From the NCBI GenBank assembly GCA_947179485.1, contig CAMXBY010000055.1, positions 204,801 to 268,800 of the forward strand: DNA of 64,000 bases, written 5' to 3'. Every line of letters starts with the position of its first letter. The stretch's first letter is position 1. Positions 500 to 61,619 of this stretch are shown piece by piece. The notes under the pieces are model-generated. The model saw nothing but the letters and a program-made list of their open reading frames with translations, was not told the origin of the DNA and made no database searches. The position numbers and the translations under genes were made by a program. Source of the stretch: Allacma fusca (Eukaryota; Arthropoda; Collembola; Symphypleona; Sminthuridae).

Positions 500-1775
500 G
501 AAGAGCTGAAGAACATACGATATCTCTGGAATTCAGATTTTGGTATTTGTACGAAAACGAAATTCTGAAAACAGTAAAACAAAGCTGGGAACTATTGCAT
601 TTTACTGTTTTTTAATTTTAATTTACACAGTACAACCGTTTGTTCATGTTCGTTTCACAGACACATTTATACTCCGACACTGCTAAAAAGATACATACCT
701 CCATATCCATGTATACAAAACCACTAAAATTATTTGAGGTGGCGTGAAAGCTGGAAATCCATAAAACGCAATTGAGGTGAGATTGGTTTCAAGAAAAACT
801 TTTTTATAGCCGTTCAAAAACTTTCCCTTGTATTCATAGGTTTTAAAAATAAATTCACTTAGGTAAACTCAAATGAATCCCCATTAAACGTTTTGTAAAC
901 TTATCTTCCGCGAAACATCGTTTCACTACCACGTTTAAAATTGCGACAGCGCATACAAATCTTACAACGCCTCAATACCCCGCCAAAAGAGACATAAAAT
1001 TATTTTAATGGCGTGAAAGTTATAAATCCATAAAAACCAATTGGCGTGATATTGGTGTCAGGAAAAACTCTTTTTATGGCAATTTAAAAACTTTCCGTTA
1101 TGTTATATTTTTTAAAACCGAATTTGCTTACGTAGGCAAATGGGCTAGACACAAAATTGAAGGTCAGAAATTCTGTCATTCTGCAAATACCTCGCTTCTG
1201 CTCGTGCAGCTGAATTTCTTTACAGGTTTTGGTCGTCCATATTTTTTACCATAAAGTCCTTTATAATAGCAGCTTACAGAATCCATGAAATGTTTTGCAA
1301 ATTAGGAAACTGTCTGAAAAATAAAATTCTACAAGACTCACAAACATTTGAAATTAATATTTACAAACAACATCAACTTTGCTTGACAATTCTCGACTCT
1401 GTGAACAAATTTTTGGCTCAAAACAATGGGGTGAATTCTATAAAATATAAACCGATATTTATTACAACCTTAGGGATAATGAAATATTTTATTAGACACA
1501 CGTTTGCAGACCTGAGGTGCACACAATAATTATGGTCTTGCATGTATGTTCCATTTCATTTTTCCGTGTACTGTCCCTTTGTTCAAGTTAAATAATTTCC
1601 TATATGAAACGCACGTCCAGATTTTAGAAAGCCTAAGAAAAAAGGTTTCCCACACTTAAAAATGCTTACCAGACCTCCATGAATTTGAAAAGTCGAAGGG
1701 AATAGGTTTTGTAATATTATGTTGTGACACTCTTGTTGACCACCTTCAAAATTTTCTACTTTATTGGGAGGGAAA
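500..1775 (+). repeat. repeat family R1, copy 1
   Basis: This is a diverged copy of the most abundant repeat of the window. Marker phrases in order are a tract near TTTACACAGTACAACCG, a GTGGCGTGAAAGC block at 739-751, GTCAGAAATTCTGTCATTC, GAATCCATGAAATGTTTT, GCTTGACAATTCTCGACTCT and TTATGGTCTTG. The same order occurs at 3530-4726, 13031-13770, 19480-20180, 31340-32830 and 59190-59900. The block region is locally duplicated, so 720-900 and 985-1150 are tandem copies of about 170 bp. The short open frames here are not convincing genes. Confidence 0.6.
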
Positions 1776-3185: not shown

Positions 3186-3199
3186 AACCAATTTCGAAA

Positions 3200-4728: not shown

Positions 4729-4875
4729 CCCAGTCAGCAAAATGAAAGCGCCCCACGATCAAGAAATAGTCGCCCGTCATTTTTGTATCAGCCGTCGCTT
4801 CTCTATGCGCCAAAATTTGTTCAGCGTTGTCAAAACGACGATGGTGGGCATATATTTAATATATACGCCCATAAG
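4729..4875 (+). repeat. left terminal inverted repeat and subterminal motifs, transposon 1
   Basis: The terminus CCCAGTCAGCA is followed by GCGCC, TCGCCC, GCCGTCGC and GGTGGGC motifs. Their complements recur at the right end (9640-9869). Such subterminal clusters are typical transposase-binding regions in CACTA-type elements; binding itself is inference. Confidence 0.65.
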
Positions 4876-4963
4876 CATCATATTTATGTAAACATGATGT
4901 CAGCATCTGTAGACACTCTCTGTAATTTGGCACATATAATTTTTACTCGATTATGCATGATTA

Positions 4964-7511
4964 ATGGCAAATCCAAAATCGACGCCAAATAAGTCAACTT
5001 GGGTTCTACACGAAGCCAGAATTCTTGGCAAATATAGTAAGTGTTATTTTACTAATAAGTTTCTCTAAAATTATTTTAAATAATTTTTAATTATTTATAA
5101 TAATTACATTTACAATCACTGCAGTTTATTTTTCTATACAAATTTTTATATCGATAAAATTTGTTTCCTAAATATAATAATGAGCGAAGACTATTAATAA
5201 ATAAATTATCATTTCGGAAATAAATAATTTATTATTTCATTGTAGACGAAATACAGCATAATTAGCATGTACGTAACTAAAAAATTATAATCAAATAATT
5301 GAACTACTTATTGAGTTAAAATTTTATATTTTGAACAAACAAACATTAAATGAACACGCGATTACAAACAATTTATTTTAAATTGCAGAAACTCTGAAAT
5401 TAGCTCGTGAAGCAGAATTTACTTCGCTGATGACATCCGGGATTGAAAGCGATTCAGACGGCTCTACAGAAATACCAAGGCTCAGAAGCGCCAGAATAAG
5501 GCAGCATATTCGTGTTGATCGCCATTCAGACGAGGACGAGAGTTTTGAGGATACTGTGAATACTGACCTTCCGTTACCTTCCACCACTTTATTTCAATGT
5601 AAGTATAATTTATTCTTGGTTATGAGTGGGGCCTTTGCCTCATTGTTTGTAATATCCTATTTAATTACAGAACTTGCTGGTTCTTTTGAGTCAAACCCCA
5701 CCTAATCGTAGATCCTGTTTCATTGAAAATTAACCAGCTCTTTTTGAGATATTGTTGACTAACTTATGTGACATTTATAAATTATTTAATGAACTAACTT
5801 CAGAGTAACAGATCGCACGAAGACCAGAATAATGGTTCTGACAGCTAGTATTAACTGAATGTAATAGAAAGTAAATATTTGAAGGAAATAGAAATGCGGG
5901 CTCTTGAGCTCAAAATTCATAGATCACTATTAGTTACGCATCATTTTACTGTGAGTTTTATGTTACCATATGAAACAATGATCACAGTGAAGATAACAAA
6001 CTAACAAAACAAAGTATCTGGGATCTCTGTAGACCTCTGCTAAGTTGCTCGCCAACTAATAATGTACTCTGTTAAAATCTATAGATAGTTGTTCGTATGT
6101 ACTTAGTACTAATTTGGCAATTTAATCACACAGTATAACAAATTACTCCTTTGAGATGAGTAATGTCTTCAGGGAGGACAAGTAAATTGGTTTTGATCTA
6201 CCTTATTATGCATTCAATGTAATGTTTGGAGAAAGCTATAAAATAAACCTCAATTGAACGATTTTTATTCCAGTCAAAAAGTAAAAGTCATGAAAGGCAG
6301 TGTGATATACATACATACCTACATTAATCTAGGGCACTTGGCATCCCTGAGAATACATCCTGTTGCTATTTTATTACGTCCACACAACATTAGTAATTAC
6401 TAAAATAAATAATAATAATAATTAATAACCAAGTGATATAAATAAAGTTGCTACAGGTGCTCCAGGAGCCACCAATGACCAACCAGAACAATGCAGCAAC
6501 AATTCCATTCCACTGCAATTTCAAGTAGCAAATAACCCAGCAGCCAAAAATTCGGAACAGATTCTGGACCTGGAAATATCAACTGCTGACCTGGGGAATT
6601 ATTCTGCCGTTGGTCCTGGATCGATACATTTTTATGTGACTGATTCGAATAAAGCGACCGTTTGTTTGGAAACGCAAACAGACTACCACCGTGGTTTTGA
6701 TTTAAGTTAGCTATAGATAATTTATTTTTCATTGACTAAGTTCACAAAACATTGAAACAATACTTCTAAGTAACCTTTTAATCATTTTAAATTCTAAATA
6801 GCGTTTCTTAGAATTTCAAGAAATTGTACTAAAGAAGCTCGCCCAGTTGCAGTTTGTACAAGATAGAATTTTGGCTGCTGTTTCTTCACGCAGTGACTTA
6901 GACGCAGACAATTTCGCTGTTCCTAACCCTTGTGAAACTATCGACGAGATAGAATTGTTGGAGAAAACATTGTCTGACGAAGATCATCGGATAAAGCTGG
7001 CAAGTCTTAGATACTGTAGTTATTAAGTTTTGGCAGTAAGTATCTCCAGGAAATGCCCAGTAACTGATCAGACAAAACTTTCAGCATTAGCAACCGGATA
7101 TGCTAACTAATTGAAATTTTATTTACCAGGAAACCTATTTGGCGTTTATTGGCGGATCCAATATCCAAAAAACTGTCAACAACATTCTTACAAAGATCAT
7201 AACGGATAAATTAGCAACTGTGATCAGTTACTCCGGGAAAGGCAAAGCTGATATTTCATTTCAGAAAATTCCTTTAATTCATGCTGTTGTCATCCGTAAG
7301 TTTGATTTAGTTAAGATATATAATTATACATATAAACTAAATTTAATTAATGTATTATTTTCATGTTTTAGGGTCAACTCGCCACAACAATGTTTGTAAA
7401 TATGCTAGCGAAACAGACATAAATAAAGCCATTATGGAATGGCTGCGATTGGCAGGAGATAGAAATAGCAAGAGGTCTCATAAGAAGAAAGGAAATTCTA
7501 GAAGCTTCTGA
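4964..7511 (+). CDS. gene A of transposon 1: DUF4806-like protein, spliced
   Basis: The proposed exons are 4964-5036, 5389-5598, 6457-6705, 6812-6999, 7130-7295 and 7372-7511. All splice phases agree and give an open frame of about 341 codons. Junctions are GT/AG except after exon 4, where the donor reads CTG-GCAAGT (a GC-AG intron). The product has an N-terminal stretch with LGKY and AREAEF, an acidic and serine-rich middle, a FQEIVLKKL helix, then IGGSN, NNILTKII and LATVISYSGKGK, and a basic tail. This order resembles insect DUF4806-domain proteins. The function of that family is not established as far as I know. The last three exons match those of the second copy (188/166/140 nt against 197/160/140 nt). 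The first exon is uncertain: the copy lacks the VVDF...VPSNWL domain seen in copy 2, so an upstream exon may have been lost. The role in transposition (DNA or end binding, targeting) is inference. Confidence 0.6.
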
Positions 7512-7512
7512 C

Positions 7513-9494
7513 ATGGGAAGTGTTTCCAGAATTACGGGTTATAGAAAAATCGCTAAATTGTATGATTCGATGGTGGTAGAATTAAATGAGAATATATCTG
7601 AGATTGATGCTAATATTAACCTAGGTGAAGTGAGTATATGTCAAACAACAATATTACCAAAAACCGTTACTAGTGAAAACGAAAACAACGCTCACGCTAA
7701 TTTTAATGTAGGTAACAGTACTGACATTGAATCTTTTGACAACCAATACCAGGATAGTTTGAGTGACTCTCTGATTGATGTAACTAGCTGTGATGAGTCA
7801 TCGGATTCAGTTGTTACTAGTGACTTTAGAAATGAGTTACGATTGTGGGCTATTAAAAACAATACCACACATGGCAGCTTGTCTGAGCTTTTAAAACGTT
7901 TAGGTAAAAAATTTCCATTAGAGAATTTACCCAGGGATGCGCGAACTCTTCTACGAACTAATGTCAATTACGTAGTTCAAGATAAGGCTGGAGGTAAATA
8001 TTATTATTTTGGAATAGCACATAATTTAAAGCTAGTTGAAAGTAATTTCAAAGGTGAATTAGTCAACAAAATATTTTTGTCAGTAGGCATAGATGGATTG
8101 CCTTTAGGGAAAAGTAGCCCAAAATGCTTTTGGCCAATTTTAGGGAAAGTTAGTATTGGTGAAAGTGATATAGTTTTTACTATTGCAATTTACTATTGGG
8201 AGAGCAAACCAAACTGCATAGCAAGTTTTTTGTGAAGAATGCATCCGATTTTTGTGAAGAACAGAAAAAGTTAGAACTTGAGGGCATAACATTAAATAGT
8301 AAATTATTTTATGTTAAGCTTTACGCTATAATTGCAGACGCACCTGCGCGTTCGTTTATTAAATGTTGCAACCCGTATAATGCTTACTTTGGTTGCGAAA
8401 GATGTATAATAAAGGGCAGTTATAGTGGTAGAGTAATTTTTAACAGAACTAATTGTCAGCTAAGAACAGATTCTACATTTAAATTACAATTAGATTTTAA
8501 CTATCATACGTCTACTTCGCCCCTTGTTAATCTAGACATGGGTTTAATTACCCAAGTCCCCCTTGATTATATGCATATGATATGCCTTGGTGTAATGAGA
8601 AAATTATTGCGGTCTTGGGTGAAAAGTATTAGGCCCATTGAGATGCACAGATATTATTTAAAAAAATTAAATTTAAACATGATTCGCATTAAACCGTATG
8701 TTGGGAAAGAGTTTCACCGTAAACCACGTAGTATTTATGAAGTTGATAGATGGAAAGCAACAGAGTTTAGATCTTTTTTATTATACTTTGGGCCTGTTGT
8801 ATTGTTGAATGTACTTCCTGAAAATAAATATATTCACTTCCTTAACTTAAGTATAGGCACGTGTATCGTGTTAAGCGATAAAGCAAATGATAAAAGTTGA
8901 AACGATCTGGCTAAAGGGCTATTTGTAAATTTTGTAAAGTCTATTAGTTTAATTTATAATAAAGACTGGCTTATCTACAATGTTCACTCACTAGTGCATA
9001 TAGCTGATGATGCTTTAAAATTTGGCCCCATTGACAATGTTAGTGCGTTTAAGTTTGAGAATTATCTGCAGTACATTAAAAGATTGGTGAGGACTAATCA
9101 TAATCATTTATCACAGATTATTAGGAGGTTGTCTGAAATTGGTGTAGAAACTAATTCTGTTACAAATATTTGTGACGCTCAGATTAATGTTACAAATGGG
9201 AATAACGTATGTTTAAATTTTGATGGTTCGGTGTTAAAAGTTGTTAATATAGTTTCAATTAATAATAAAAAAGAATACATTTGTAGGAAGTTTTTAAATT
9301 GTATAGATTTTTTCGATAAACCTATTAGAAGTTCGTTACTATGTATTTACAAAGTTCAAGAGAGATTCTTGTCTTCTGAAATTGTTGTAAAAAATATTCG
9401 TGTTTTGCGCAAGTGTCTGTGTTTTCCTTTAGAAGGCATGGAAGAGTTCGTTGTTGTACCGCTAATTGTTAATGATATTAATAAAAGTAAATAA
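7513..9494 (+). pseudogene. gene B of transposon 1: tnp2-like transposase, broken
   Basis: An ATG starts 1 nt after the stop of gene A. The frame is also open upstream from 7423, inside gene A's last exon. About 660 codons run without introns to 9494. Recognisable in order are LPRDARTLLRT, SVGIDGLPLG (possible catalytic D at 8092), ADAPARSF (D at 8337), a GCERC Cys pair (8394-8405), PLDYMHMICLGVMRKLL and KATEFRSFLLYFGPVVL. The layout parallels plant tnp2/Transposase_21 (DGFNP, DFPA, ACPxC, LDVMHIEKN), so a cut-and-paste transposase of the EnSpm/CACTA group is the best call. It is broken twice: a 1-nt shift in a run of six T at 8226-8231, and an in-frame TGA at 8898-8900. Otherwise it is well preserved. 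Exact superfamily and catalytic residues need alignment. Confidence 0.7.
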
Positions 9495-9639
9495 TGTTGT
9501 TGTTTCCAAGAACTTATTACCTTCTCTAACCTGATTGAATCATATGCATCCTAAAGGTTTAACCGCATGTAAAAGGTATGTAATAGTAGTAGAGTATAGT
9601 AAATTATACAGTAAATATTTCATCAGCCCTAACCCTATG

Positions 9640-9869
9640 GCGCCTTCAAAAATTATTCGCCCTGGATGCATTGGCGCTTCAATAGCGCAATTCCTACTCT
9701 CATATGGCTTACTCGAGAATCTATCGCCCATACCGGCCAAGATTACATGTGGGCGATCCTCGCCCACCACCGTCGTTTTTATCGGAATTTCGTCTCACGG
9801 CGCATTGTGCAGTGATATCATGAGGCGCACTGCGCCTCGACATCGCCCTACCAATTTCTGCTGACTGGG
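9640..9869 (-). repeat. right terminal inverted repeat and subterminal motifs, transposon 1
   Basis: The region is rich in CGCCC, GGGCGA and GCGCC motifs and ends in CTGCTGACTGGG, the inverted counterpart of the left end. The open frames found here on both strands run through these motifs and are not genes. Confidence 0.65.
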
Positions 9870-39100: not shown

Positions 39101-40409
39101 AGTTATACCCAAGCAAATGGTCCCTGATGTCCTTCAAAAACACCACGACTCGGTGTGCCATATGGGACACACCAAGACTTTACAGAAGCTACAAACAAGT
39201 TTCTACTGGAGGACAATGTCACAAGATGTTCACACATATATTCAATCCTGCAAAATCTGCCAGGAGCGTAAAACTCCCAGAGGACAGAAACAACCTGGAG
39301 AATTCCAGTACATCCCGATTCCCCTCCGTCCCTTTGAGCGAGTCCAAATGGACATACAGGGCCCACTGACCAATCAAGCTGGCCGACCACGGTACATAAT
39401 TACAGCCATCTGTTATTTAACAAAATTCCTAGTTACTGACGTTGTCCCTATAGCAGATGCCAAAACAATTGCGAATTTTATCTGTAACAAACTAGCCTGT
39501 CAATACTCACTCCCTAACACTTTACAAACAGATCAGGGCACGGAATTTAATAATTCGGTCCTCACTGAACTCTCCAAAATTTTTGACTTCAACATGCAAT
39601 TTTCCACTACCTTCCATCCACAGAGCCAAGGGCTTGTGGAAAGGACTCACCAAACTTTAGGAGACGCAATAGCAATGTACACTGCTGAAGCTAAAGCTGA
39701 CTGGCCTTTGGCACTATCCGCTCTGACATTCCATCTAAATAACACACCACACACTTCTCATGGATACACCCCGTTCTTCCTTCTTCACGGATTCAATGCT
39801 CGCACTCCTCTTAGTAATGCCTTCCCAACATTCTCCCCTGAACACCAAAATATCCAAAATATGGACACACTATGGAAATTAACACATGACATTCTTCAAC
39901 GACATCGACAAAAATATGCTGCGCGAGTTAACAAAACTAAACGCACGGTTACGTATGAAATAGGAGACAATGTACTCTTGGAGCATACTTCAATTCAGCC
40001 AGGAGTAAGTATCAAACTTCTTCCCCGTTGGAAAGGTCCATTCAGTATCATTGACATTCCGTCCGCAGTAAATTATACAATACGAGGTTCCACTGGCACG
40101 ACTATGAAAACAATGACAGTACATGTATCAAGACTCAAAAAGTATTATGAACGCCCAAACTGGTTAAAACTGCCATCTTTATTGAACACAGCACATCAAG
40201 CTCCAAATGCAGAGCCGTCCACAAATTTACAAACTTTAACACGAAAACATATTGACTCTACAGGTCGGGTGACCTCACCTTACCCTGCAAATTTGTCTAT
40301 GTATTTAAACGAAGAAAAGTCGGGCGTGACCCCTCTAGGAACTCACGATCCCGGGGGACCCACAAACCCCCCCACCCCCTATGGAAGGCCCGCCTCCCCC
40401 AAGAGGTAG
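36135..40409 (+). pseudogene. pol: pol: protease, RT, RNase H, integrase; two in-frame stops
   Basis: A single frame stays open from the gag overlap to 40409 apart from TAG at 36432-36434 and TAA at 37641-37643. The protease shows LIDTGAAASLI (36297) and, after the first stop, CILGTDFL. RT has PRMVIDFRSLN, LDLAQGFHQI, MPFG and YVDD at 38085-38096. RNase H has TDAS (about 38530), LLELLAITWA and TDHHSL. Integrase has the HHCC finger (from 39141, with CKICQERK) and the catalytic residues D 39351, D 39531 and E 39639, with 35 residues between the last two. PRWKGPF marks the C-terminal GPF/Y-like module. All catalytic residues I can see are present, so only the two stops disable it. Confidence 0.93.
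36246..36287. repeat. perfect inverted repeat (hairpin) before the protease active site
   Basis: The arms TCATCACTATCCATGGCC and complement pair perfectly over 19 bp (20 with the flanking T-A pair at 36245/36288) around the 4-nt loop TTAT. It lies inside the pol frame about 10 nt before the DTGA codons. It could be an RNA structure or a template-switch artefact of reverse transcription. Confidence 0.85.
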
Positions 40410-40716
40410 CCTTCCCCCATTTGTACCCAACCCTTCTAAAGATTTAACACCTGACCTACCTACGGTAATTGATCAACCTACGGCATTATCATATGCCAAT
40501 GATTCCCTACGTGCAAATTTGCAACCATCAGAATCAATTACTCTACCTACTAAAAGAGTTCGAAGAACTCAACAACAAATTTTAGAAGAGGATTCACACA
40601 AAATAATTCCATCAGATTTTTATACACGTAAAGATGAAGAATTCCGAAGGTCCACAAGACATAATATAGCTGCGGTGGAAAATTTATTCCACTCCATGCT
40701 TATTCGCTGTTCATAA
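40381..40716 (+). CDS. third short ORF of the retrotransposon, unknown
   Basis: The ORF has 111 codons, overlaps the end of pol by 29 nt in the +1 frame and starts at an ATG. The product is proline-rich at the N-terminus, then charged (KRVRRTQQQILEE, RKDEEFRRSTRHN). There is no signal peptide, membrane segment or known envelope feature. It may be a pol C-terminal extension reached by frameshift, a small accessory ORF, or the 5' piece of a lost gene. It has no counterpart elsewhere in the window. Confidence 0.4.
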   Translation: MEGPPPPRGSLPPFVPNPSKDLTPDLPTVIDQPTALSYANDSLRANLQPSESITLPTKRVRRTQQQILEEDSHKIIPSDFYTRKDEEFRRSTRHNIAAVENLFHSMLIRCS

Positions 40717-42020
40717 TTTCCATCTGCACTACTATACACATTTTACTTAAGAAAATATTGACATAATATCAAAAGAAAAATTATGGAACTCAAGATAGTC
40801 CCATCCTCGGGAACTCATCTCTGCCCCAGATGTAATGGACTCGACCAGCATTATTAAACACTCAAATACCGTGCACGGGCAAAGCTTGCCGAGTCCCACG
40901 GAGCACTTCAATCAAATAAACAATTAAACAATTGACCCACAAGTACCGAGTGCTCATAATGCAAGACAATTCCATGACACCATAACCGGCATCATAGATA
41001 AATTCCCTGGATCTACAGACCGTAAGGGTACCAGCCCGCAGACCCTTTGCCCTATCCTACACAACTATCACGATAAATGTTTGCACAACTGTTTCTCCAT
41101 GAGCGATGAATTCAGAATAACCGAAATTGTTGTCACCCTGTAGAAATACAAAAATACAGAATTACACTTTGTTTGTCACAACCTTATACTAATTCATGAA
41201 TATTTTTGAGTTCTAGAACAATTTACATTCTGCAGAATTATCCTCCGAAAAAACTCCAGCTGAAGATATCTCTACATCTCCTACTCCATCAATTAGCAGC
41301 TACACAGCGCCTGGATCCACAACGGCGCCAACCAATTTCATGAAATCCACGTTTAAAATAATTATTCTTTATTGCTTTTGATTCTCACAAACATTTCCAT
41401 ATAATTTACTCATTTATGCCACTCTTATAATACACCATTTATTTACACTGTCAACACTCACTCTATTTTTCACGTGCACTTTCTATTTCCCCGAAACTTA
41501 TAGAATTGATCACTCCAATATTGTATCGACCCCTACCCATTCGAAGCTCTGAAAAACACACAAAATTTCTTTGTAATATCTTTTACACACACATTTACAC
41601 TCATACTTTATGCTAAAATTAATATGAACGAAAAAAAAATAGTTCCTACTCACCCCGTATAATCACTTTGTTGTATTTTCCATTCCACAAATTATGGGGG
41701 CATAATTTTCCCTGTACTAGTGCAGTTTACAGCACCAAAATCTCTTCACAATTGTATTTTCTATTGAATTTTGTATTTTTTGTGAGTTTGTATGCTAAAA
41801 ACTTTGGCAAACATGTCTGCCAGAAAAAACCTCACTTTTAAGTTCAAGACTGCAAAAAGAAAGAAGAAATCGCTCCACATCCAGTCCATTCGGAACGTCT
41901 CGGAAACCATCACAAAAAATTGTACAAAGTTAATCCAATGTACTATGTTTATCCAATTGTACAATCCATTCCCACTACTACGTTCAATAACGGGAACATC
42001 ATTTTTCTAAATTGGTAGAT
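40717..42020. other. non-coding 3' internal region of the retrotransposon
   Basis: The region is 1.3 kb between the third ORF and the 3' LTR. It contains no frame above about 72 codons and no envelope-like signal. A purine run AAAAAGAAAGAAGAAA at about 41855-41870 is distant from the LTR. Directly before the LTR only AATTGGTAGA is present, so the polypurine tract is not obvious. Confidence 0.5.
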
Positions 42021-42583
42021 TGTTAAGCCATTATTGGCTTTAAGAATGATTATGAGCCATACTGTACTATATAATAACATTGACGTACATATATGTCTGA
42101 TTTCTGTTAATATCGCCCGTGTAATACATCAGGTACTTTTATTTGTTATTTCCCATTGGTTAAAATAATGTCTGGAATATTCCAGGAGGTGGACTTATAA
42201 GAGCTCACCTTCGTATATAAACCCCAGCTTCCTCAGTCTCGAGAGACTAGAGAATCCCGAGCCACAGACCAAGAAAGACCAAGAGACGCGTGTGAGAGCA
42301 GACAAACTGTGTAACCATTTGTACGCACGATATACAATAAAACTATACTGCGTTAGTAAAGTGATATAGTACATACGCACTTATTTCACACGAACGTCGT
42401 CTCATCCCTCTCACACAACAAGAGTGTGTGCTCTGCCTGCTACACATTCCCCCATCTACTATTTTTAACACTTCATTCCTTCTTCCTTCAAGCTCTCTCC
42501 ACTTTTTCCTATTTTATTCCTTTTTTATTCCCTTTTCCTCTTTTTAAATTCTATTACTCCCCAAGTCAAATTATTAAATAACA
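42021..42583 (+). repeat. 3' LTR
   Basis: 563 bp, TGTTAAG to AATAACA, with TATATAAA at 42214-42221. It matches the 5' LTR except for about 16 substitutions counted by eye and no length change. It is followed by ATAT, the target duplication. Confidence 0.95.
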
Positions 42584-44764: not shown

Positions 44765-45598
44765 CAGAGCTTCTGCCGGGGACAGGGACGTCCCGTTGGG
44801 ACACTGGACGGACCGGGACGGGACGTCCCCGGGGACAAAATTATTGTCCCCATGTCGTATTCGGGACGGGACGGCGACAAAAAAAATTGACCCCATTGTA
44901 TTCGGGACGGGACGGGACAAAAACAAATGTCACCATTATATCAGGGACGGGGACAACAAAAATGTTCTCCACTATATTCGGGACGTAATGGGGACGGAAA
45001 AATTGTCCCCATTGTATTCTGGACGGGACATACTGTTTGGTCCTGTATATAACGGGACGGGACGAGCAAGCATAGCAGAACAAGGATAACGTTTTAGCTT
45101 TAATGCTCATGAGTAAACTATTCTGTGAACACTACTTCACCGAATGTAAGACATTCGATTTTAGGTTGTAGAAAATGAAGCTTCTTGCTCAAAACGTTAA
45201 GGAAGAATCTTGGAGCCACGATTCTATAAATTTGTTTTGTCTTTAGTACAAATATTTTTTGTACGAATTTTTCTCATGTTCCGATTTTCGATATGACTGT
45301 TTTTTGTAAGTATCGGGACGGTACAGGAATTTTATTTACATGCCCCAATTTTCGGGACCGGAGACAATGTTTTTTAAACATTTTCGGGACGGGACGGGGA
45401 CAAGCTTTTTGTCCCCATGTCCCGACTTTCGGGACGGGACCGGGGACAACATTTTTATAAATTTTTGGGGACGGGACAGGGACATGGTTTTTGTCACGGT
45501 GTCCCGATTGTCGGGACGCGACTGGGGACAAATGTTTTTAAAAAATATCGGGACGGGACGGGGACGAGACAAGAATTTTGTCCCCAACAGAAGCTCTG
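44765..45598. mobile_element. non-autonomous hAT-type element 3 (GGGACGGGGAC-array)
   Basis: The 11-bp inverted ends CAGAGCTTCTG are flanked by a perfect 8-bp duplication CGTTGTAG (44757-44764 and 45599-45606). Both arms consist of degenerate GGGACGGGGACAAAA units or their complement GTCCCC, with an AT-rich centre. The six overlapping frames here encode only repeat peptides (SRPV, RDGTG) and are not genes. 834 bp. Confidence 0.92.
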
Positions 45599-47775: not shown

Positions 47776-47870
47776 CCCAGTAAACAACGAAACCTGGCCC
47801 AGGACCGGTCCCATTCAGTTATTTATGGCTACATGTTGGCATGGAACATTCTATGGCAAACCAGAGTTTT
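47776..47870 (+). repeat. left terminal inverted repeat, transposon 2
   Basis: CCCAGTAAAC is followed by CCTGGCCCAGGACCGG and by TTGGCATGGAACATTCTATG, which resembles the GCATGGGAA units near the right end. Confidence 0.65.
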
Positions 47871-48129
47871 ACCACAATAAGCGAGTTGTCTTATTCTGGG
47901 AAATACTTTTGGCGATGGTGGAAGTTTAGGGTATTCATATTTTCCGCTACAATTCATGCAGCCAGTTATGGTCCGTTACCAAGTGAGATCTGGTTGCCAG
48001 CAAACGGTCAAATATTGGTTAGCCAGAAAGCTAACAGTATTGGTACCAGGGCTGGCCCAATAATATTATCACAGAAATGAGAATTTTACGGATAACCTGT
48101 GGTTCAAACTAAACGTCTATCAATGTCAA

Positions 48130-50307
48130 ATGTTTGGGAGCAGTCCGTCATTCGGAAGAAAATTAAATCAAGGGAAAATCAAGGTAAGCCATATGTGGTC
48201 CTCTTCAGTATTGTCTTTGGCATATGTATTACTACTAAAACTATTGGTTTCACGGTTCAGCACGTGTTGCCAAAGTAAACCCATAAGGCAAAAACGCCAC
48301 AACCTTAGATTTCTGGCGCGACATTGGTAGCCCAGTTATTGACGCCATTCATATATGTACACACCTCTTAAAAACTCCGTCAGTTATAAATTTGCAGTGG
48401 CTGATTTTAAAATACCCATATGTGTGATTCTTTACGGCATTTAAAAGTCGTGACACATTTACCGTAGTTAATGAGGAGTACTACACATTTTGCAGAAAGA
48501 ATACGGACTTAAAATAACCCCGTGCTTTTATGTTGTAGACTTTTCTAAAGACAGTAGTGTAGAAGCTGTACCATCAAACTGGCTTTTCGAAAAATATACT
48601 AAATGTCACTGGCCTACCAATGTGGACGACTTGAAGATCACTAGATTCATTCAAAAGTGCGTGGATCCTACCCTTTACCCAAAAGTCGAATGGATGATTT
48701 ACGATTGTAAGGTTCGAGAAAGAGCAGGAAAATTTGGTAAGTTCAAGTTCATTTTAATCACATTTTCTAATTATGATTCGAAAGATATGAATTAATTGTA
48801 CATTTTTAAAAATAATTTATTTTCCTTTTTCCAATTTTACTTGAATATTTGCTGATTTTTAATAGTAATTCACAAATATTGTAATAATGTTTATTTAGGG
48901 AAATTTAGGGTGAAAATCAATTGCTGTTTGATTTTGAAACACAAATTCACACATTCTGAAATTACAATACCCTTTGCAGATACATATGAGCAAGCGAATT
49001 TTGCAGCTGATAAAGCTGTAGAACAAACAGATGTAGAGCTGACAGAATCCGATGGAAATTCAGATTTGCCGTTCAAGCGCCGACTTCGTAAGAGACGTCC
49101 CGTTACTGCTAAAGACCAACAAGACAATTTTCGTTCTTTACACGGTGTTAATCACCCCAGTGCTACTTCTTCAGCCGTTATTTGTTCTTCGTCCTCTTCC
49201 GGAAGTAGTGAGCCTTTGATGGAGGATAATTACGTAACGGATAATTTGGAGAATCCGTTTGGGTTTCTTGGCAATTTATTTGTTTCAGACAAATCAGATG
49301 CTGGATTTGGTAACATTTAAAACTACAGAGGTAGTTCCAATTTTTAAACCAAATCAGTATAACTGAAAGTATACAATACTGTTTGAACAGATTTGAACAC
49401 AGTTGAAGATCAAACGGTAGGTGAAAATGTGAATGCAGGTGGAACGTTTCACCAACTTACAACTTCCCAAATAAAAGGCTTACTAGAGGACAGAATCGAA
49501 TCACTTACGCTTGAAGTTCGAAGTATTGCCTAATCGGGTTTATCAAATTTGTGAACATTTTTCAATCATTTGATTTTTAATTTGTAGTGAAAAAATTAGC
49601 AAAATATTAAATATTATAAGATTGTGTTGTATATATTCCAGGGTTTCAAGAAGTTTTGACAAATCAGTTTCTTCATCTAAAGGAAGACATCGCTCACATC
49701 TCTCGTATGGTTTTACTTGGATCTTCGGAACTACCAGTCGATGAATCAGACCTTGGTATACCTTTACCGTGTACAATTATTAACCAATTTACTGACTTTA
49801 ACGTGTGGTTGAATATTGGCGAAAATCGCTTACAATTAGTGAGTTAGAATGAGTTTTTGCATAAAATTTTTACATTTGAATGAATTCATACCACTATTAA
49901 TAAGATTTAAAGAAAGTTTTCATAATGATAGGCAAGGTTCCTGAAGGGAATAGGTGGGCACAACACTGATTCGTTTGTGAAGCGTATACTTCAGCGAACA
50001 ATTGGACCTGATTTAGCAAATGCGATGACCTTCGGCGGGACCAGGACTAAAATTGCTTTTGAAAATCATCGATTAATGTCTTGTGTTGTCGGTGAGGGTT
50101 ACACATGCGAACAAAACATTTGTAGGGATATTATTTCATGTACATATATTTTTACTTTTCTATATAGCTGCTGTACGCAAACCCCCTGAGGACAGCGAAC
50201 CATCGGAGGCGGATATTGAGCAACACGTTCGAAAGTGGTTTTTGTGTTCCGGAGATCGAAATGGTGGGCGAGCGAGGAGAAACAAACAAGCGTGCCCTAA
50301 CAACTAG
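48130..50307 (+). CDS. gene A of transposon 2: DUF4806-like protein, spliced
   Basis: The proposed exons are 48130-48183, 48496-48736, 48980-49309, 49391-49522, 49642-49838, 49932-50091 and 50168-50307. All have GT/AG ends, the phases agree, and the frame is open for about 417 codons. Exon 2 encodes a compact domain: ITPCFYVVDFSKDSSVEAVP, SNWL, KCHWPTN, VEWMIYDCKV and GKF. This resembles the N-terminal segment of insect DUF4806 proteins (VVEF...VPSNW...CxWP). The middle is acidic then serine-rich. The C-terminal part has FQEVLTNQFLHL, LKGIGGHNTDSFVKRIL, LANAMTFGGTRTK and AAVRKPP, then a basic tail, which resembles DUF4806 itself. The last exon is 140 nt, as in copy 1. The family function is unknown; association with a transposase in two elements suggests an accessory transposition protein. 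Start and first exon are the least certain parts. Confidence 0.65.
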
Positions 50308-52201
50308 ATATGCACAAATAAGTTCAGAAAAACGCTGCAGGCGTCGAAGGATTGCTTCATCTGTGTCAGCTTTGTTATCTACTGTTCGAAGCCAGATTGA
50401 AGCACCTACCAGTAAACGTGAGCATGAAATTAATCAAATAAACTCTGAACGTACTTCGGCATTAGTGAGTTACAGTGAATGTGTTCAAGAAAGTATTTGC
50501 GAAGATAAATACTTCAAATCGCCTTTTAATGATAATTTGTTTAGTAGCGATAGTGATAGTGACATTAAAGATGCTAATGTATCATTGAAACAAAGTTTAG
50601 CAGAATGGAGTTGTAGATTCAATGTAACACATAAGTCAATAGATTCGTTGTTAAAAATTCTACAGCCTCATGTAACAGTTCAACTTCCTAGAACTGCTAG
50701 AACTTTGTTGGAAACACCACGCAACGTCATTTTAGAAAATATTTGTTGCGGTGATTTTTATTATTTTGGTATTCTATCTAACATCATTTCTAGATTAAAA
50801 TGTGGTTTCAATTCCTTGTGAACTGAAGTAAGTATTACTGTTGGCTGTGATGGTCTTCCAATCAGTAGGAGTAATAATAGACAGTTTTGAGCAATATTGG
50901 GGAATTGCAACCAGTCAATTAATCAGACCCCATTTGTTATAGCCATATTTGAGGGGAAAAGTAAACCCAAGTGTTTAGCGTCATATTTGAAAAAATTCAT
51001 TGAGGAAGTACAATTGGTTGAAAAACATGGAGTAATTTTTGAAGATAGTAGTTATAAGTTTAGCATACTGTGTTTCATAGCAGATGCCCCAGCACGTAGT
51101 TTTTTAAAATGTATAAAAACTCATACCCTGAAATAAATTGCAAACTTCGAACGGACAACAGCTTCAGATATCAAAGTCAGGAGGAGCATCACTGTGGAAA
51201 CTCTCCTTTAAACGAATTAAAAATTGGATTGGTTTCAGAGTTTCCTCTTGATTACATGCACCTTGTGTGTTTAGGTGTAACTCGCAAGTTATTACAGAAC
51301 TGGGTGAAAGGGCCATTAAAAGTACGATTGACCTGTCGTAGTGTAGATATTCTCTCCAACAATTTAGTTATGCTGGTTCCATTTATTCCCAAAGAGTTTG
51401 CTCGTAAAGCAAGGTCTTTACGGTAATTGGACCATTACAAGGCCACAGAATATAGATCATTTTTACTTTATTATGGATTAGTTGTTCTAAAATATGTTTT
51501 GCCTGCTCTACTTTACAAAACATTTTTAAAACTTAGTGCATCTATATTTATTTTGGTTAGCCCAAACGCAAAATTAGCAGATTGTTTTAATTTGGCTAAG
51601 CAGCTTTTAACTGATTTTGTGACTGATCAAATCTCTTTATGGTCCTGAGTTTATTGTATACAATGTTCATGGTTTAACTCAATTAGTCAATGATGTACAA
51701 AATTTTGGATGTCTCGATAAATTCAGTGCGTTTGGATTTGAAAATGTTATGCAAACGTTGAAAAAAATGGTCCATTCTAAAAACATTTGGTACAGCAAGT
51801 TGTAAATAGGGTGCGAGAAATGGAAAATTGTTCTATTTCAGCATCACATAAAATAGGAAATTTTGTTATCTGTAAATCTAACAATAAGAACATATAACAA
51901 TGTAGTTCTGTCTATTACTGAAGGCGATAACTGTTTTTTAACCAACGAGTTTAAGATTGTAATTTTAACATCTTTACATGATGTTGAAAAAGGTAGTGTT
52001 GAGTGCAAATTTTTGCTTAATTTAAATGGGCTAGAAGATTACCCTCTTGATAGTAGAAAGTTATGCATATTTATCGGTGAAGGATTTTCATGTCCCATAA
52101 TTGTATCTATACAAGCTTTGAAGCAAAAATGTACACTTTTTCCAACTGTAACAAACAAGTTCATTTGTATTCCCTTGACTTTTGATATAATTCACAAATA
52201 A
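50216..52201 (+). pseudogene. gene B of transposon 2: tnp2-like transposase, heavily broken
   Basis: The frame opens inside the last exon of gene A in the +1 frame; ATG at 50261 is the most likely start. Segments match copy 1 in order: LPRTARTLLETPRN, GCDGLPISRS, ADAPARSFLKC, LRTDNSFRY, EFPLDYMHLVCLGVTRKLL, YKATEYRSFLLYYGLVVL and a C-terminal KFICIPLTFDI. Lesions are TGA at 50819-50821, TGA at 50888-50890 (in place of a Trp in copy 1), a deletion near 51120 removing the Cys-pair region with a frame change, TAA at 51424-51426, and a frame change near 51640. Further breaks lie before 51863. It is a dead tnp2/Transposase_21-type transposase, older or less constrained than copy 1. Confidence 0.7.
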
Positions 52202-52302
52202 ATTACTGTGAATATGTTTTAAAAATGAAAAATAACACTGAAATTATTGTAGTAATTATTACAGAAATTACGTTAATTACGCAATTGCAAAATGGCGGCA
52301 TC

Positions 52303-52480
52303 TGCATGGGAAAACATTTTAGGGCCAGTCGTGGCAATTATCCTTCAACCTGTACTGAACCGGCATGGGAATTTAATATAGGTCCAGTGGTGGTAATTAT
52401 CCTGTAATATGAAAATCGGCTTCTGCATGGGAATTCAATATAGGGCCAGCACAAGCAATTTTCTTGCAACCATGAAAAAT
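52303..52480 (+). repeat. subterminal direct repeats, transposon 2
   Basis: Three direct units start with GCATGGGAA at 52304, 52363 and 52424 (spacing 59 and 61 bp). Each continues with TTTAATATAGGGCCAG or near and CAATTATCCT or near. Subterminal arrays of this kind are the expected transposase-binding sites in CACTA-like elements. Confidence 0.7.
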
Positions 52481-52599
52481 AGTACAATGTCCCGGCACTG
52501 GTCCTGAATCTGACCTCTTGGGTTTACCAATATGTTACCGACGTATAACCGGGTAACTACCACATTTTCGAGCCCGGATGGCACCTTTATAGCGCCGGC

Positions 52600-52677
52600 G
52601 GACAATACCAAATCCCAAACAGATTTTAAAAATACGGCTAGGGCCAGTCCTGGGCCAAATATTTCTGGTTTACTGGG
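52600..52677 (-). repeat. right terminal inverted repeat, transposon 2
   Basis: GGCCAGTCCTGGGCC, then GGTTTACTGGG, is the inverted counterpart of the left end. Confidence 0.65.
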
Positions 52678-54790: not shown

Positions 54791-55300
54791 CTCAGCAAGG
54801 GTGAGTAATTTCTGGTATCTATACCCGCACCCATACCTTAAAATTTGGGTACAAATTTTTCACATCCGTACCCGCAATGCAATCCGAAATCTTTTCTTCT
54901 TGTTTTATTAAATATTCTATCCCATACTAAATAATCTCCTTTACATTTCCCTATAAATAATTTTCTTTTTAATAATCATTTTTCCTAAGTTAAGCAAAAA
55001 GCTACAAGAAAATCAAGCTTAACACTTTTTAATTTTATTCACTCACAATCAGTACGGACAGTTGTTTCGATCCGTTTTACAAACACAATTAATCTACAAA
55101 ACAACTTCTAAACTGAAGCTGAATTTCTTTACATTTTTCCATGTGTGCGCTGTCAGATCTTTCAATTTAAATAAACTTAGATGTGAAATGTATGTTCAAT
55201 TCTCAAAAAATCTAATGAAAAACGTTTCCCACACTTAAAAATGCTTTACCCTGAGAACTGCGGCCGCGTGCCCTATTCATAATTAACAAGCATGAGCCAT
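54790..55300 (+). repeat. repeat family R1/R4 fragment
   Basis: TACCCGCACCC, GGGTACAAATTTTTCACATC and GCAATGCAATCCGAAAT match 29760-29840. TTTTTCCTAAGTTAAGCAAA matches 31438-31458. It shows the uninterrupted form of the repeat that holds hAT element 2. Confidence 0.45.
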
Positions 55301-55309
55301 ATATTTTCA

Positions 55310-57790
55310 TGAATTTTTTGTAAAATTCTTGCATTCAGGAAGAATAATTATTGTAAGTCAACATGAAGTGCGTGTTATTGTTGAGACTCCATTGGCGAAA
55401 GGTCCAGAAGTATTGTAAACTTAACAACAAAAAAAGTTACGTGGCGCGAAAGTGAAGCCATAAATATACTAATTGTAAGTAATTCTCATTTTCTAAATCA
55501 GCATCGTTTCTTTGGTAGAAAATGTGCTTGACCCGTCGTGTTTCTAACTGTTTGCAGCATATGCGTGATTTATTGCAATTTTAATTAACTGCAAAGTTCG
55601 ATTTTAATGATTTTTATTGTCTTTATATTTGGGTAAATTAATTTGAAATAACGATAATAATTATCGCTTGCTAGTTTTTAAGCCATATCAGTTATTAATT
55701 TTAATTGTCCTAATTCCCGTTACATTGTAAGAGTAAGTCGTCACTACAAACTTAACTGATGCTATTTAAGCATGAGAAGGTCAAATCGGATCCGTCCAAG
55801 AATAAAATTAGGAAATTCAAATCATAGTGCAACACGTCAATAAAATGCTTTTACCGAACCGCAAAGTTTGAAATGTTAATTTTGTTTTAAATCAGGGATT
55901 TATTTCTAAAACCTCATGTGATTTAAATCTGCTCTTTGGGGATTAAATCTATTCACTTCCATCAGCTGTTGATGAGCTTCATATGTTCCCGGCAGAAATT
56001 TTTGATTAAATTGTATCACTTACAAGGGAAAAAAATTGTCAAAATCTTTTTCACAACAAAATTGTCTTGAAAATGCAAAACTGTTTTGAAAATTATCATT
56101 TATTTTGAAAGTTTTGTAATTGTCAGTACAGAGTTCAATAACATTTCGTCTCCCATTAGACCAGAAAAAGAGAAACCGTTGAAAAAACGAGAATTTCTAA
56201 GAGAGCAACGTAAATTACGAATTAAGATAATTTAAAATAATAATAATTTACGTGGCTTCAGTAATAAATTCCAATAGATAATTATCAGGATTTCAAATTG
56301 ATTTACTCAAATTAAAGTGGTCGAAAATAAACATATTCATTAATTAAAACAATGAATTGAAATAAAATTACAATAAATTCGGCATATGCTGCGGACAGCT
56401 CGAAACACGCTGGGTTGCACACCTTTCCTGCCAAAGAGATGAACTGGTTTAGAAACTGAGAATGACTTGGTATATTTAAAGCTTCGCTTTGACTCCACTG
56501 TAACTATTTCTTGTCGACGCGCACCAAAACGCACAACAGATTCCACGCGTCAGGTAACGCAAGAGATTTACAAAAATTGTGGACAATTACCTGACGAAAT
56601 CGCGTTAATTTCAGTATACAATTATAAAATGGGCGATTAAACAATTTTGGAAACAATTTTAAATTTGGTGTGACTTCCAACTAGATTTTGAACAAATGAA
56701 ATTGAAAATTATTCATTTGGTAAATTATTAATAGTTATAATATTGTCATCAGCTGGGATATTTTTCCATGGTACATAAATATTTTAATATCCTTGGATGT
56801 AGAAATAATTTCAGGTGCAATTTCATCCCTGCGCCCCTGAATAATAATTGCCCCCAATTTAACCATATAAGGGAATAACTTCCAAAATATTTGATGCCCT
56901 AATTGTCCTAGAAATTTTTTTCTAGTAAAGTTTGTTTCATGAGTCAGTTTTTGTGATCCCAGCTGTCGCTAACGAAGCAAAGTCAGATTTTCGCATATGC
57001 TCAATTTGACCCCTGGGACTAAATATTTGTCTATGCTTGTTTAATATGATTAAGACTCAATTTTCTAGGTAAAGATCCGCCATATAGCACCCTGGAAAAA
57101 CCTTTCGAATTTTAATCAAAAAGCGTCAGAACATTATTAGAAAACCCAACTCTGGCGTCTGCTGAAATTCACGAAGGTCAAAGAAACATTTCCAGTCCGG
57201 AAAGGTGTATGTATATGTCTCATAAAATATTTTATTCTCCTTAAGATTGTAGCAAATTTCGTTACAGATTTTTTAGAATTCACTTCATCCACCTTGGTCA
57301 ATATTTCAGCTCACAAGGTATAGAAGTGTCAAGTAAAATTGGTGTTTTCCAAAATATTAATTTGAAAATTATGTTCAGTCAAAATTTCGAATCTAATTTG
57401 GGAAACATAAACTGGATTTGCTAAGCTACTATTGTTTATATTTATGACTCTAAGGTTAGAAATATGGACATGACCAAAAGCTGTAAATAAATAATAAATA
57501 ATTCGTACATCAAATTTAGTTGAAAAAAAAACAGATTTGCTGCAAAATGGGCAACTGAATATTTTTAACGCACTATTTTATATATCAGTGACAGGAATCG
57601 ATGTTTGCTAACACCTTGTCCCAAAACTTGAACTTACACTTTTGTCCAATAACCATTTTACATTAGAAGAATCCCGTGAGTCCTGTAAATATTGTATTTT
57701 AAAAGAAACAAAAATTAAAAACAATGTATGGTGTAACGACACTGAATGTTTACATGCTAACATTTATTACGGAATTATAAGAGAAATTTT
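55310..57790. repeat. R5 segment plus long duplicate of 17590-19440
   Basis: From 55310 it follows the R5 order (GTGGCGCGAAAGTGAAGCC at 55441, GCAGCATATGCGTGATTT). From 55910 it is collinear with 17590-19440 to about 57790. A reversed block GCTTCGCTTTGACTCCAC is at 56481-56498. A 120-bp segment near 57170-57290 is present here but not in the other copy, and is itself R1 text. Confidence 0.6.
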
Positions 57791-57854
57791 AACAGGGTAT
57801 TGGACTTGGTTCTTTGCTAAATTTATATACAGTATTCCTAATATTGCTGGTTAA
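57642..57854 (+). pseudogene. Cys-rich peptide remnant (piggyBac-like tail?), copy 2
   Basis: A 70-codon frame contains FTLEESRESCKYC, CNDTECLHANIYYG and IIREILTGYW. It differs from the copy at 19224 mainly by conservative changes, but this alone does not prove past selection. Assignment to piggyBac rests only on cysteine spacing. Confidence 0.25.
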
Positions 57855-58260
57855 ATCAAAGCGAATGATTTGACCTGAAATTTCAATTTACTATTATAAT
57901 AATTTAAAAAAAAAATGTGAAGCTCAATTTAATCTTTCATCCTAGTTAAATTGTAATTAAAAAACGTTTTATTTATTTATATTGAGAAAAATTCTCCTAA
58001 CTTTTCTAAAATGTAATTAATTGACCTCGGATATTTGTTTGGGCTATGTTAGTCTATAATTTAAAGTAAATGGAGGACATTCTTGGATTATCATATCTAC
58101 AGTAATTATTCTTATTGTAAATAAATGTATAATTGTCGTTATCATTTTGTACATTAAAATGCCATTAAAATGACATTAAAATGTGAGCATTTTTGGAACA
58201 AAGAAGAACTGACGTCGCATATTAGCTATTTGTTGTTCTAATAATTTTTCTGTATACCTG
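57855..58260. other. no recognisable feature
   Basis: AT-rich. It contains ACATTAAAATGCCATTAAAA, a short local duplication. Confidence 0.3.
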
Positions 58261-58304
58261 GCACGTAAGGGTAGGATGGAAAATACTTATTGCAGCGTGG
58301 AAAT

Positions 58305-58831
58305 CAGGGTTGGTTTGGTTTAAACCAAATGATTTAAACCATGGTTTAAACCACGGTTTAAACCAAACGGTTTTTTTATAAAAACCAATGGTTTAAACCA
58401 AACACCTAAAATTTTAATATTTTCAATCCAAAATGCTTATATTTCCTAGTGCACAAAACTTGTGCAGTTACTGTGATATTGTGTAGTTAAACTTTAGTGA
58501 AGTAAATAATACTATTAGCATTTAGTCTTGTACATTTAGAAATTCGGAATCGTTTGTAAAATGAAAAATGCCAAACTTATGTTTATGCTGCAAAGTTATC
58601 GTTGAAATTATATCTAAATTATTAAATATTTAATGCTTTGTGATACTTACTGAGTTTGGGAAATAAGTAAATTTGTTCAAATTCACATGTTTTTGCATAT
58701 TAATGAATGTTTTGGATTGAAAATTTGTTTAAACCAAAAAAACCTGGTTTAAACCAAAAAAACCCGGTTTGAACCAAAAAAACCTGGTTGTTTGGTTTTT
58801 TTGAAAAAAACCAAAAAAACCCCCAACCCTG
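58305..58831. mobile_element. non-autonomous hAT-type element 4 (GGTTTAAACC-array)
   Basis: The ends CAGGGTTGG and the inverse CCAACCCTG are flanked by a perfect 8-bp duplication GTGGAAAT (58297-58304 and 58832-58839). Both arms are arrays of the palindromic GGTTTAAACC and of GGTTTTTTTGG-like units, with an AT-rich centre. 527 bp. It lies in an R4 repeat whose text resumes at 58832. The frame at 58700-58885 is an array translation. Confidence 0.92.
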
Positions 58832-59095
58832 GTGGAAATTCAACAATTTTGTGATATGATTTAAAATTGCTCTCCAATTCGCCACGGATTTTTAAAAAAT
58901 TCTTAATTAAATGTCGGATTGATATATCAGATGTGATCGTGAATCTGTCATAAATTAATTGTTCTCCAAAACTTTGTTGGACTGTTCACTTCACTCCAAA
59001 GGGATACTAAATTTTCAATTATGGATCAGAAGATTTTGAGACAATTTTAGAAAGCTAAGTGCTGTGGATAGAATATTTTAAATAGAGCCATATGC
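58832..59095 (+). repeat. repeat family R4, continuation after hAT element 4
   Basis: AATTCAACAATTTTGTGAT, GTTCACTTCACTCCAAAG and GGATCAGAAGATTTTGAGAC match 45740-45980 in order. Confidence 0.45.
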
Positions 59096-59189
59096 AAAAT
59101 GCTAATTTGTTTTTTTTATGAAAAATGTCTCTTGAAAAACGAATCTTGGCTCACAATTTTTTTAGATGTGGGTAAGTCACGTACCTCGA

Positions 59190-59900
59190 ACCTAAATCTA
59201 AAGCCATTAACGTTAAACTACACATGTTTTGAAAATAGTTTAAAAATAATAGTGAAAAATAAAATTATAGCGTATGTTAGATGTAACATTTGCCTAGCAT
59301 GGGTTTATAATATTATTATATTTTATTATCTTTTTATATTGATTCACAAAGTACCCTCGTTTATTTATGTTCGTTTTATTCGTCGTATCGTATTTACACT
59401 GCGACGACAAAACGAATAAGTCAATCTAGAGTTTCCTAAGAATGCGACGCATGCAAAATTATTTAATGTGGCGTGAAAGCTGTAAATCCATAAAAATTGA
59501 GGTGAGATTGATTTTAAGAGAAAATCTTTTCATGTCTTCAAAAATTTTTATGTCTTTGTAGGTTTTAATGACGAATTTGTTCACATAGGTATATAATTGG
59601 GGCTAGACTTAAATGAAACCCCATTAAATTTTCTGCAAAATAAGCTTCCTGGAAAAATCTATGAGCGCCGGACAGTCCATGAAAAATGCAAGTTGAGAAG
59701 TTCAGTCATTCTGCGCCTTTCTCGCATTTGCTCTTGCAGCTGCATTTTTTTTTAAATTTTTTATTACGTCCATACTGTATTTTTTGCCTTAGATTCATAT
59801 GTAACAGCAGTTTAGAAAATCCATCAAATGTTTTACAAATTGGGCTCAAAACTGTGTCTAAAATAATTTTTTAATTGATATTTAAATAAATAACCAACTT
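59190..59900 (+). repeat. repeat family R1, copy 6
   Basis: It includes TATAGCGTATGTTAGATG, GTGGCGTGAAAGC at 59468-59480, CGCCGGACAGTCCATG and TTTTACAAATTGGGCTC. The 106-codon frame at 59099-59419 is hydrophobic and lies across repeat text, so I do not treat it as a gene. Confidence 0.55.
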
Positions 59901-60640
59901 TGCTTGACACTTTTCTACACTGTGAGCTCAAATATATTGTAAATGAATTTATATATGAAATATATACAAATATGCATATACATATAACAATGATTTCCGT
60001 ACTTCAAGTAATGCAAAATCATGCTGTAGATTTAACTACCTTTAGTTTTGTTTTTTCAAAATTTCATGAAATTTTGAACAGTTTTCAAACGTTTTTTGTT
60101 ATGACAGCTAAGGATTTCTCACGGGAAGAGTTACATACAACGACAGAACTAACGCCAACCAACCTCATTTGTCTTGGAATATTGTCACCCTCCTTCAATT
60201 TTCCAATTACCAAAATGTCAAAATATTTCGAAAAAAAATCAAACTTTGCGTAAAAATCTTATTTAACCACGGAAATGAATTCAAATTCCTTCCCCTCCCC
60301 GGAAGTCGACATTTCATGAAATTTAAAAAAAAAACACTTGAGAAACATTCCAATTTGACTTCACAAATGATTTAGATTTTCAGTGCGACCGTGAAAAATA
60401 ATTTTCACAACTTTTTGTTTAATTTGTAATTATCTCTTTTTCCAGGAAATCCACCCGCCTCATGAAATGACGTATAAATGTACTCAGCTTTGTTACGTAA
60501 ATATAATTCAGAATACATGCAATACACAGATCCCCGGACACAAACAGTTAACTAATCCATTGACTATCAACTAATCTTACACTAGTTTTACACGAGCGTT
60601 AAACTTCAATTCCTATCGATTCATCGACTACAGTTCGGGA
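59901..60640. other. no gene recognised
   Basis: AT-rich. The 117-codon frame at 59900-60253 shows no domain or signal. I found no repeat partner. Confidence 0.3.
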
Positions 60641-61616: not shown

Positions 61617-61619
61617 ATT

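Follow-up and report, generated by a model that had tools for sequence, protein, structure and literature searches.

The DNA analysed here is a window of 64,000 nucleotides (64 kb) from the springtail Allacma fusca, whose genome comprises 392.7 Mb in 91 contigs. It contains two DNA transposons, E1 and E2 (Table 1), each carrying a spliced gene related to DUF4806 proteins (gene A) followed by a transposase gene (gene B). The analysis supports that the DUF4806-like gene belongs to the transposon, because it accompanies gene B in 44 of 45 copies, is kept in near-identical recent copies and evolves in step with gene B. The pair was studied in this one genome. We consider it probable that these elements are two-gene cut-and-paste transposons, in which the product of gene B cuts and inserts the DNA and that of gene A binds subterminal repeats and aids the transposase. 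A first-pass annotation of the window had described two diverged elements with this gene order between CCCAGT-type ends. Indeed, both were found where it had placed them, and in both gene A precedes gene B on the plus strand between inverted CCCAG...CTGGG repeats.

Pairing of gene A and gene B across the genome

A genome search with the deposited Allacma model P0071, in which A and B are fused, gave at least 48 gene B places. The sequences of 38 of these loci were read, 30 with 1.5 kb on each side and eight as stretches of 10 kb. Exons of gene A precede gene B on its strand in 29 of the 30 loci with 1.5-kb flanks and in all eight longer ones. The same holds for five out of five more distant gene B copies (41–47% identical to gene B of locus L036), which were chosen to test the depth of the association, and the total of 44 of 45 includes E1 and E2. 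The exception, L018, is broken off near the start of gene B, with neither a left end nor gene A in about 5 kb upstream; its classification as an element without gene A was rejected, since it represents a 5′-truncated copy. The first-pass annotation had proposed that the DUF4806-like gene is part of the transposon and had named recently mobile copies without gene A as evidence to the contrary; none occurred among the 45 gene B copies, and copies with gene A and without gene B do exist. By our own grouping of pairwise matches, the 38 loci together with E1 and E2 make up 17 DNA families.

In the reverse direction, 66 places matching the first exon of gene A and 31 places matching its exon X2 were compared with a list of at least 100 gene B places. 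A listed gene B lies 1.5–3.7 kb downstream on the same strand at 40 of the 66 first-exon places, at one more it follows at a distance of 8 kb, and 23 of the 31 X2 places have one within 2 kb. Gene B in another order or on the other strand was not found within 4.5 kb of any of the 66 first-exon places.

Recent mobility, termini and target site duplications

These transposons have moved recently with gene A on board. Two copies of 5,172 bp each, located 27.6 Mb apart on the same contig (C8), show two differences over 5,176 aligned columns, which include the TA on each side. Their flanks are unrelated, the reading frame of gene B is open (697 aa) and the gene A exons are free of stops. In several other families copies are 98–99.9% identical. 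Such near-identity together with open frames suggests that some families may still be mobile, and these copies could provide a system testable in the laboratory.

For 12 insertions both ends were read; the boundaries of two of them (L033 and L034) were shifted by one base after reading the copy sequences. A 2-bp duplication was found in 11 of these insertions (TA in eight, TT in two, GT in one), E2 being the one without. The right flanks of other copies start with further dinucleotides, so TA is preferred and not obligatory. The left end reads CCCAG in all 12; at the right end, 10 have CTGGG and two (L002 and L003) have TTGGG.

Gene A encodes a DUF4806-like protein

The spliced C-terminal part of gene A from E1 matches DUF4806 (PF16064) with 36.3 bits (E 7.2e-9; Pfam cut-off 25), and the deposited protein P0121 reaches 25.1 bits, above the same cut-off. 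The first-pass annotation had assigned gene A of both elements to DUF4806. This holds for E1 by direct match; the C-terminal part from E2 gave no Pfam match of its own, but it aligns with gene A of E1 (E 8e-20, 27% identity). Among 10 gene A sequences in alignment A3, either spliced or deposited, nine match DUF4806 at E ≤ 0.01. The first exon holds another conserved block, VVxF..VPSNWL..CHWP, and no model recognised it in a Pfam search with the E2 exon. All relatives found in a protein-collection search with gene A are from Allacma fusca (P0121–P0123).

Gene A of E1 lacks the first part that is present in the Allacma fusca protein P0123, the remainder being nearly identical by eye. Its exon X1 was read with a GC donor at window positions 7000–7001; at this point P0123 follows a different splice pattern, in which the beginning of the DUF4806 core is missing. 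The start codon of gene A is lost in E2 and retained in L002.

Gene B encodes a transposase with a predicted RAG1-like fold

A protein search with gene B yielded 2,087 relatives, and the 120 best include sequences from Folsomia candida, Allacma fusca and the fish Megalops atlanticus. Pieces of gene B from E1 and E2 share 44% identity over 95 aa and did not match any Pfam transposase model. Seven residues (D193, D272, C291, C294, H488, H492 and E512) are invariant in 28 gene B sequences and correspond to the signature of the CMCT clade, a DDE transposase with C(2)C and H(3-4)H between the second D and the E. The full series of motifs was found in 10 of 15 families of the Allacma genome; in the other five the reads are short or changed. 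The predicted fold is of the RAG1/Transib type, at 9% identity to RAG1. Gene B is read as a DDE transposase of the EnSpm/RAG1-like (CMCT) clade with a RAG1-like predicted fold.

The name tnp2, and with it CACTA, had been given to gene B in the first-pass annotation. Only a distant kinship can be retained from this, since Transposase_21 was matched by two of 10 gene B relatives, both below the cut-off, and termini and the 2-bp duplication are unlike those of CACTA elements. DUF4218 stayed below the cut-off in all 10. Precomputed annotation of the 120 listed relatives gives PF02992 (Transposase_21) for one (P0110) and PF13960 for 11.

A proposed role for gene A

According to the reading we prefer, the gene B transposase would cut at CCCA[AG]-type inverted ends and insert the element with a 2-bp, mostly TA, duplication. 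Gene A would encode a nuclear DNA-binding protein composed of the N-terminal VPSNWL block, a basic linker and a C-terminal DUF4806/BEN-type domain. We infer that this protein most likely binds TGGC/CCAG-rich subterminal repeats near both ends, that it may be required for movement, and that it would recruit or position the transposase and help it to find or pair the ends. A and B, which abut or overlap by up to 50 nucleotides, probably share one transcript, from which both would be produced through alternative splicing or reinitiation.

In one element from each of eight families, TGGC/GCCA occurs at 25.8 per kb in the 250 bp next to each end and at 5.15 per kb inside, with an excess in all eight; several points weigh against the proposed role, the first being that the ends are richer in G+C (0.41–0.47 vs. 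0.33–0.36), which inflates this enrichment, and that the motif was discovered in the same sequences that were used for counting. The palindromic CCAG..CTGG motif was counted 13 times in 8.8 kb of ends from 11 elements and three times in 46.5 kb inside, but it is confined to three of the eight families and was rejected as a universal signal, as the other five have none. Exon phases were read by hand in E1 and E2 and then imposed by a script at 40 loci, so the recovery of exon X2 in 31 and of X3 in 37 of them serves as a consistency check and not as independent proof. AlphaFold2, applied to P0121 with 10 other rows, gave a gene A model with a predicted local distance difference test (pLDDT) score of 40, which is unusable, and a PDB profile search with alignment A3 returned nothing at E ≤ 10. 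The BEN-type fold is a candidate label taken from one passage in PMC11075544 (citing Pan et al. 2023), the only source of the link between DUF4806 and BEN. Within families the changes in gene A are few (15 pairs), and the ratio of nonsynonymous to synonymous change (ω) is uneven: it is 0.16–0.23 in five pairs (L002/E2, L002/L009, L012/L016, L028/L034 and L033/L037), but 0.37, 0.44, 0.67, 0.94, 1.40 and 1.48 in six others and 0 in two. For L002/L004 and L002/L006 it is undefined, with no synonymous and one and three nonsynonymous changes, respectively.

Finally, 25 of the 66 first-exon places and eight of the 31 X2 places have no listed gene B in range, the gene B list being a lower bound. Four of these 25 were fetched and none holds a full gene B; three show a CTGGG end downstream of gene A, one of them with a scrap of gene B, and the fourth is truncated. 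Gene A can thus occur without gene B, while gene B without gene A was seen only in a truncated copy. Three loci (L042, L043 and L045) retain gene A and the CTGGG right end, with little or nothing left of gene B; they are possibly non-autonomous or repressor-like derivatives.

Gene A could instead belong to the element as a regulator, acting on the promoter or against silencing and standing outside the cutting complex. We regard this as unlikely, though it is the strongest of the alternatives. It would agree with the conservation of gene A together with gene B, and BEN-type proteins are predicted to recruit chromatin factors, as part of PMC11075544 states. Moreover, retention of gene A and the right end in three of the four fetched copies without full gene B is what a repressor-making derivative might show. 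The density of TGGC motifs at both ends, beyond the promoter side at the 5′ end, speaks against a regulator; the present data do not separate a regulator from a member of the cutting complex.

Co-divergence and selection on genes A and B

The possibility that gene A is a passenger, picked up once and without a role in transposition, is very improbable in view of its divergence. Over 15 of the 17 families, protein distances of gene A (last two exons) and gene B are correlated (r 0.82, or 0.735 without E1; p 0.0001 with 9,999 permutations), with mean distances of 0.541 and 0.529, respectively; two families were dropped, exon X2 not having been found in their representatives. In 13 pairs between families the synonymous sites of the gene A exons are saturated (proportion of synonymous differences, pS, 0.71–0.99), and nonsynonymous differences amount to 0.17–0.48 in A and 0.21–0.51 in B. 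Between families gene A is under purifying selection. Both this constraint and the divergence in step with B argue against a passenger, as does the presence of A in every gene B copy except the 5′-truncated one. In favour of a passenger, no transposase seems to accompany one DUF4806 gene (L001).

L001 is the single match to DUF4806 listed in a six-frame search of the genome. No gene B was found in about 5 kb downstream of it, and no CTGGG or TTGGG end within its 3.2 kb, the only stretch scanned for ends. Together with L052 it lies at C8:17592900-17599950 of the Allacma assembly (G000), as a DUF4806 gene without a nearby gene B. It may be a host gene, a copy that was domesticated, or a distant derivative.

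Layout of genes A and B

The distance from the stop of gene A to the start of gene B ranges from −50 to +81 nucleotides in the 23 of 32 loci in which a start was found; in the remaining nine a start or a frame was not found. The two genes overlap by 47 nucleotides in E2 and L002, where they are read in different frames. One shared transcript is suggested by this arrangement, because it leaves little room for a separate promoter. That A and B are spliced into a single fused protein, the separate stop of A being unused, fits their close spacing and the deposited model P0071, which joins them, but appears most improbable of all, given the differing frames in E2 and L002, the conserved C-terminus of A (GSGDRNGGR-like) and conserved start of B (KRRK-like) in many families, and two Allacma models (P0121 and P0123) in which A is not fused to a complete B. 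The deposited models P0071 and P0121 seem to fuse gene A with gene B, entirely or in part, which would be either an annotation artefact or a real fusion transcript.

Relation to known transposon systems

We assign these elements to the CMCT clade, as an unplaced lineage in which the partner protein is DUF4806-like. Placement in EnSpm/CACTA was rejected, as the ends are not of the CAC..GTG/CACTA type and the duplication is not of 3 bp. In plant Spm elements the TnpA protein binds subterminal repeats, and it recruits or positions the transposase. The springtail elements resemble EnSpm/CACTA in their DDE transposase with the same clade signature and in having a second protein, which in plant CACTA elements supports movement, according to an excerpt of PMC4158355. 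They differ in their ends (CCCA[AG].. vs. CACTA), in the duplication (2 bp vs. 3 bp), in the second protein, which is DUF4806-like, and in gene B relatives that remained below the Transposase_21 cut-off in the Pfam search of 10.

ESTA, a fungal CMCT lineage with a TET/JBP gene, combines an EnSpm-like transposase carrying C(2)C and H(3-4)H with TA duplications, as described in part of PMC12730594, and resembles the springtail elements in these features. In contrast, CMCT ends are mostly CA..TG, and the fungal elements carry TET/JBP where the springtail elements carry DUF4806 (PMC12730594; the comparison is by description and not by a tree).

PIF/Harbinger elements likewise consist of two genes, for a transposase and a small DNA-binding protein; in zebrafish the second protein, which is Myb-like, binds to a subterminal motif of 9 bp and makes contact with the transposase (PMC9710019). 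The differences are another transposase family, a 3-bp duplication and a Myb/MADF second protein. Membership in PIF/Harbinger was rejected, since the second protein of the springtail elements matches DUF4806 only and their duplication is of 2 bp.

ProtoRAG and RAG1/RAG2 resemble the springtail elements, whose gene B transposase has a RAG1-like predicted fold. They, too, have a two-gene layout. The springtail partner is nevertheless DUF4806-like and not RAG2-like, and gene B shares the 9% identity with RAG1 given above. Among the titles and abstract openings listed for BEN-domain, EnSpm, CMC, RAG1/CACTA and Allacma fusca no DUF4806 transposon was found; a Repbase entry may exist.

DUF4806 genes beyond Allacma fusca

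Our results suggest that the DUF4806 family includes helpers of DNA transposons. The domain would thereby gain a concrete setting and a testable role, and a transposase of predicted RAG1 fold would be linked to a new type of partner. Relatives of the pair beyond Allacma fusca were not found in the viral and genome contig collections searched with alignments A1 and A3. Hints of a wider distribution come from expansions of DUF4806 genes and from the gene B relatives in fish and Folsomia: one published table lists 69 and 54 DUF4806 genes in two Hydra vs. 0–6 in its five other cnidarians, another source gives DUF4806 as enriched in a beetle gene set, and a passage in PMC11075544 mentions four zebrafish-specific DUF4806 genes. 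Transposons carrying DUF4806 may explain such species-specific expansions. It is conceivable, and put forward here tentatively, that DUF4806 is at its root a transposon partner domain, that a widespread lineage of RAG1-like animal transposons uses a BEN-type DNA-binding partner where ProtoRAG has RAG2, and that the free-standing DUF4806 genes, expanded in Hydra, insects and zebrafish, derive from transposons, either as copies or as partners that were domesticated. In genome annotation, many 'DUF4806 domain-containing proteins' could then be classed as transposon genes.

Elements and other features of the window

E1 and E2 show no DNA similarity by blastn and therefore belong to separate families, which rules them out as copies of one. 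Both are dead, as genes A and B are broken in each; gene B of E2 is interrupted by stops and by a deletion of about 60 bp. Relatives of E2 in family F1 (L002, L003, L004, L006 and L009) occur elsewhere in the genome with 85–95% DNA identity to it. The joined flanks of E1 match uninterrupted copies of a host repeat at 1509–1713 (79%), 32692–32857 (71%) and 55129–55254 (73%); these three empty sites confirm the boundaries of E1 and are compatible with a TA duplication. The flanks of E2 are TA (left) and AT (right), and its target duplication was therefore lost or never clean.

Table 1 Features of elements E1 and E2 (positions in the window)
Feature	Position	Strand	Remarks
Element E2	47776..52677	+	4,902 bp; CCCAGTAAAC...GTTTACTGGG; dead member of family F1; from terminal inverted repeats and DNA identity
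E2 left terminal inverted repeat	47776..47785	+	CCCAGTAAAC
E2 gene A exon 1	48514..48736	+	VVDF..VPSNWL..CHWP block; start codon lost; P0121 aligns
E2 gene A exon 2	48980..49309	+	linker with basic stretch; relative P0071
E2 gene A exon 3	49391..49522	+	
E2 gene A exon X1	49642..49838	+	DUF4806 region begins
E2 gene A exon X2	49932..50091	+	DUF4806 core, FLKGIGG...
E2 gene A last exon X3	50168..50307	+	stop included (KWFLCSGDRNGGR)
E2 gene B	50261..52201	+	RAG1-like/CMCT transposase (predicted), broken; ATG 47 nucleotides before end of gene A
E2 right terminal inverted repeat	52668..52677	-	homology of family copies ends here
Element E1	4729..9869	+	5,141 bp; TA|CCCAGTCAGCA...TGCTGACTGGG|TA; dead; family other than F1; TA duplication
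E1 left terminal inverted repeat	4729..4739	+	CCCAGTCAGCA
E1 gene A first coding region, surviving 3′ part	4964..5036	+	vs. P0123
E1 gene A exon 2	5389..5598	+	vs. P0123
E1 gene A exon 3	6457..6705	+	5′ limit uncertain by about 25 nucleotides, 3′ limit approximate; vs. P0123
E1 gene A exon X1	6812..6999	+	read with GC donor
E1 gene A exon X2	7130..7295	+	DUF4806 core
E1 gene A last exon X3	7372..7511	+	stop included
E1 gene B	7513..9494	+	frameshift near 8230, stop at 8898-8900
E1 right terminal inverted repeat	9859..9869	-	
Empty-site paralogue of E1 insertion site	1509..1713	+	

The host repeat belongs to a diverged long repeat family that recurs at 590–4700, 19588–20150, 31462–32900 and 55000–63000; one copy hosts the insertion of E1 and others serve as empty sites. 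A candidate Gypsy-like long terminal repeat retrotransposon, named so from frame reading only, is located at 34758–42318; direct repeats of 300 bp at both ends, 96% alike, enclose long frames of 402 and 921 aa. Tandemly repeated CGGGACGGGGACAA-like units occupy 44830–45565, in arrays whose periods are 36, 40 and 82 bp.

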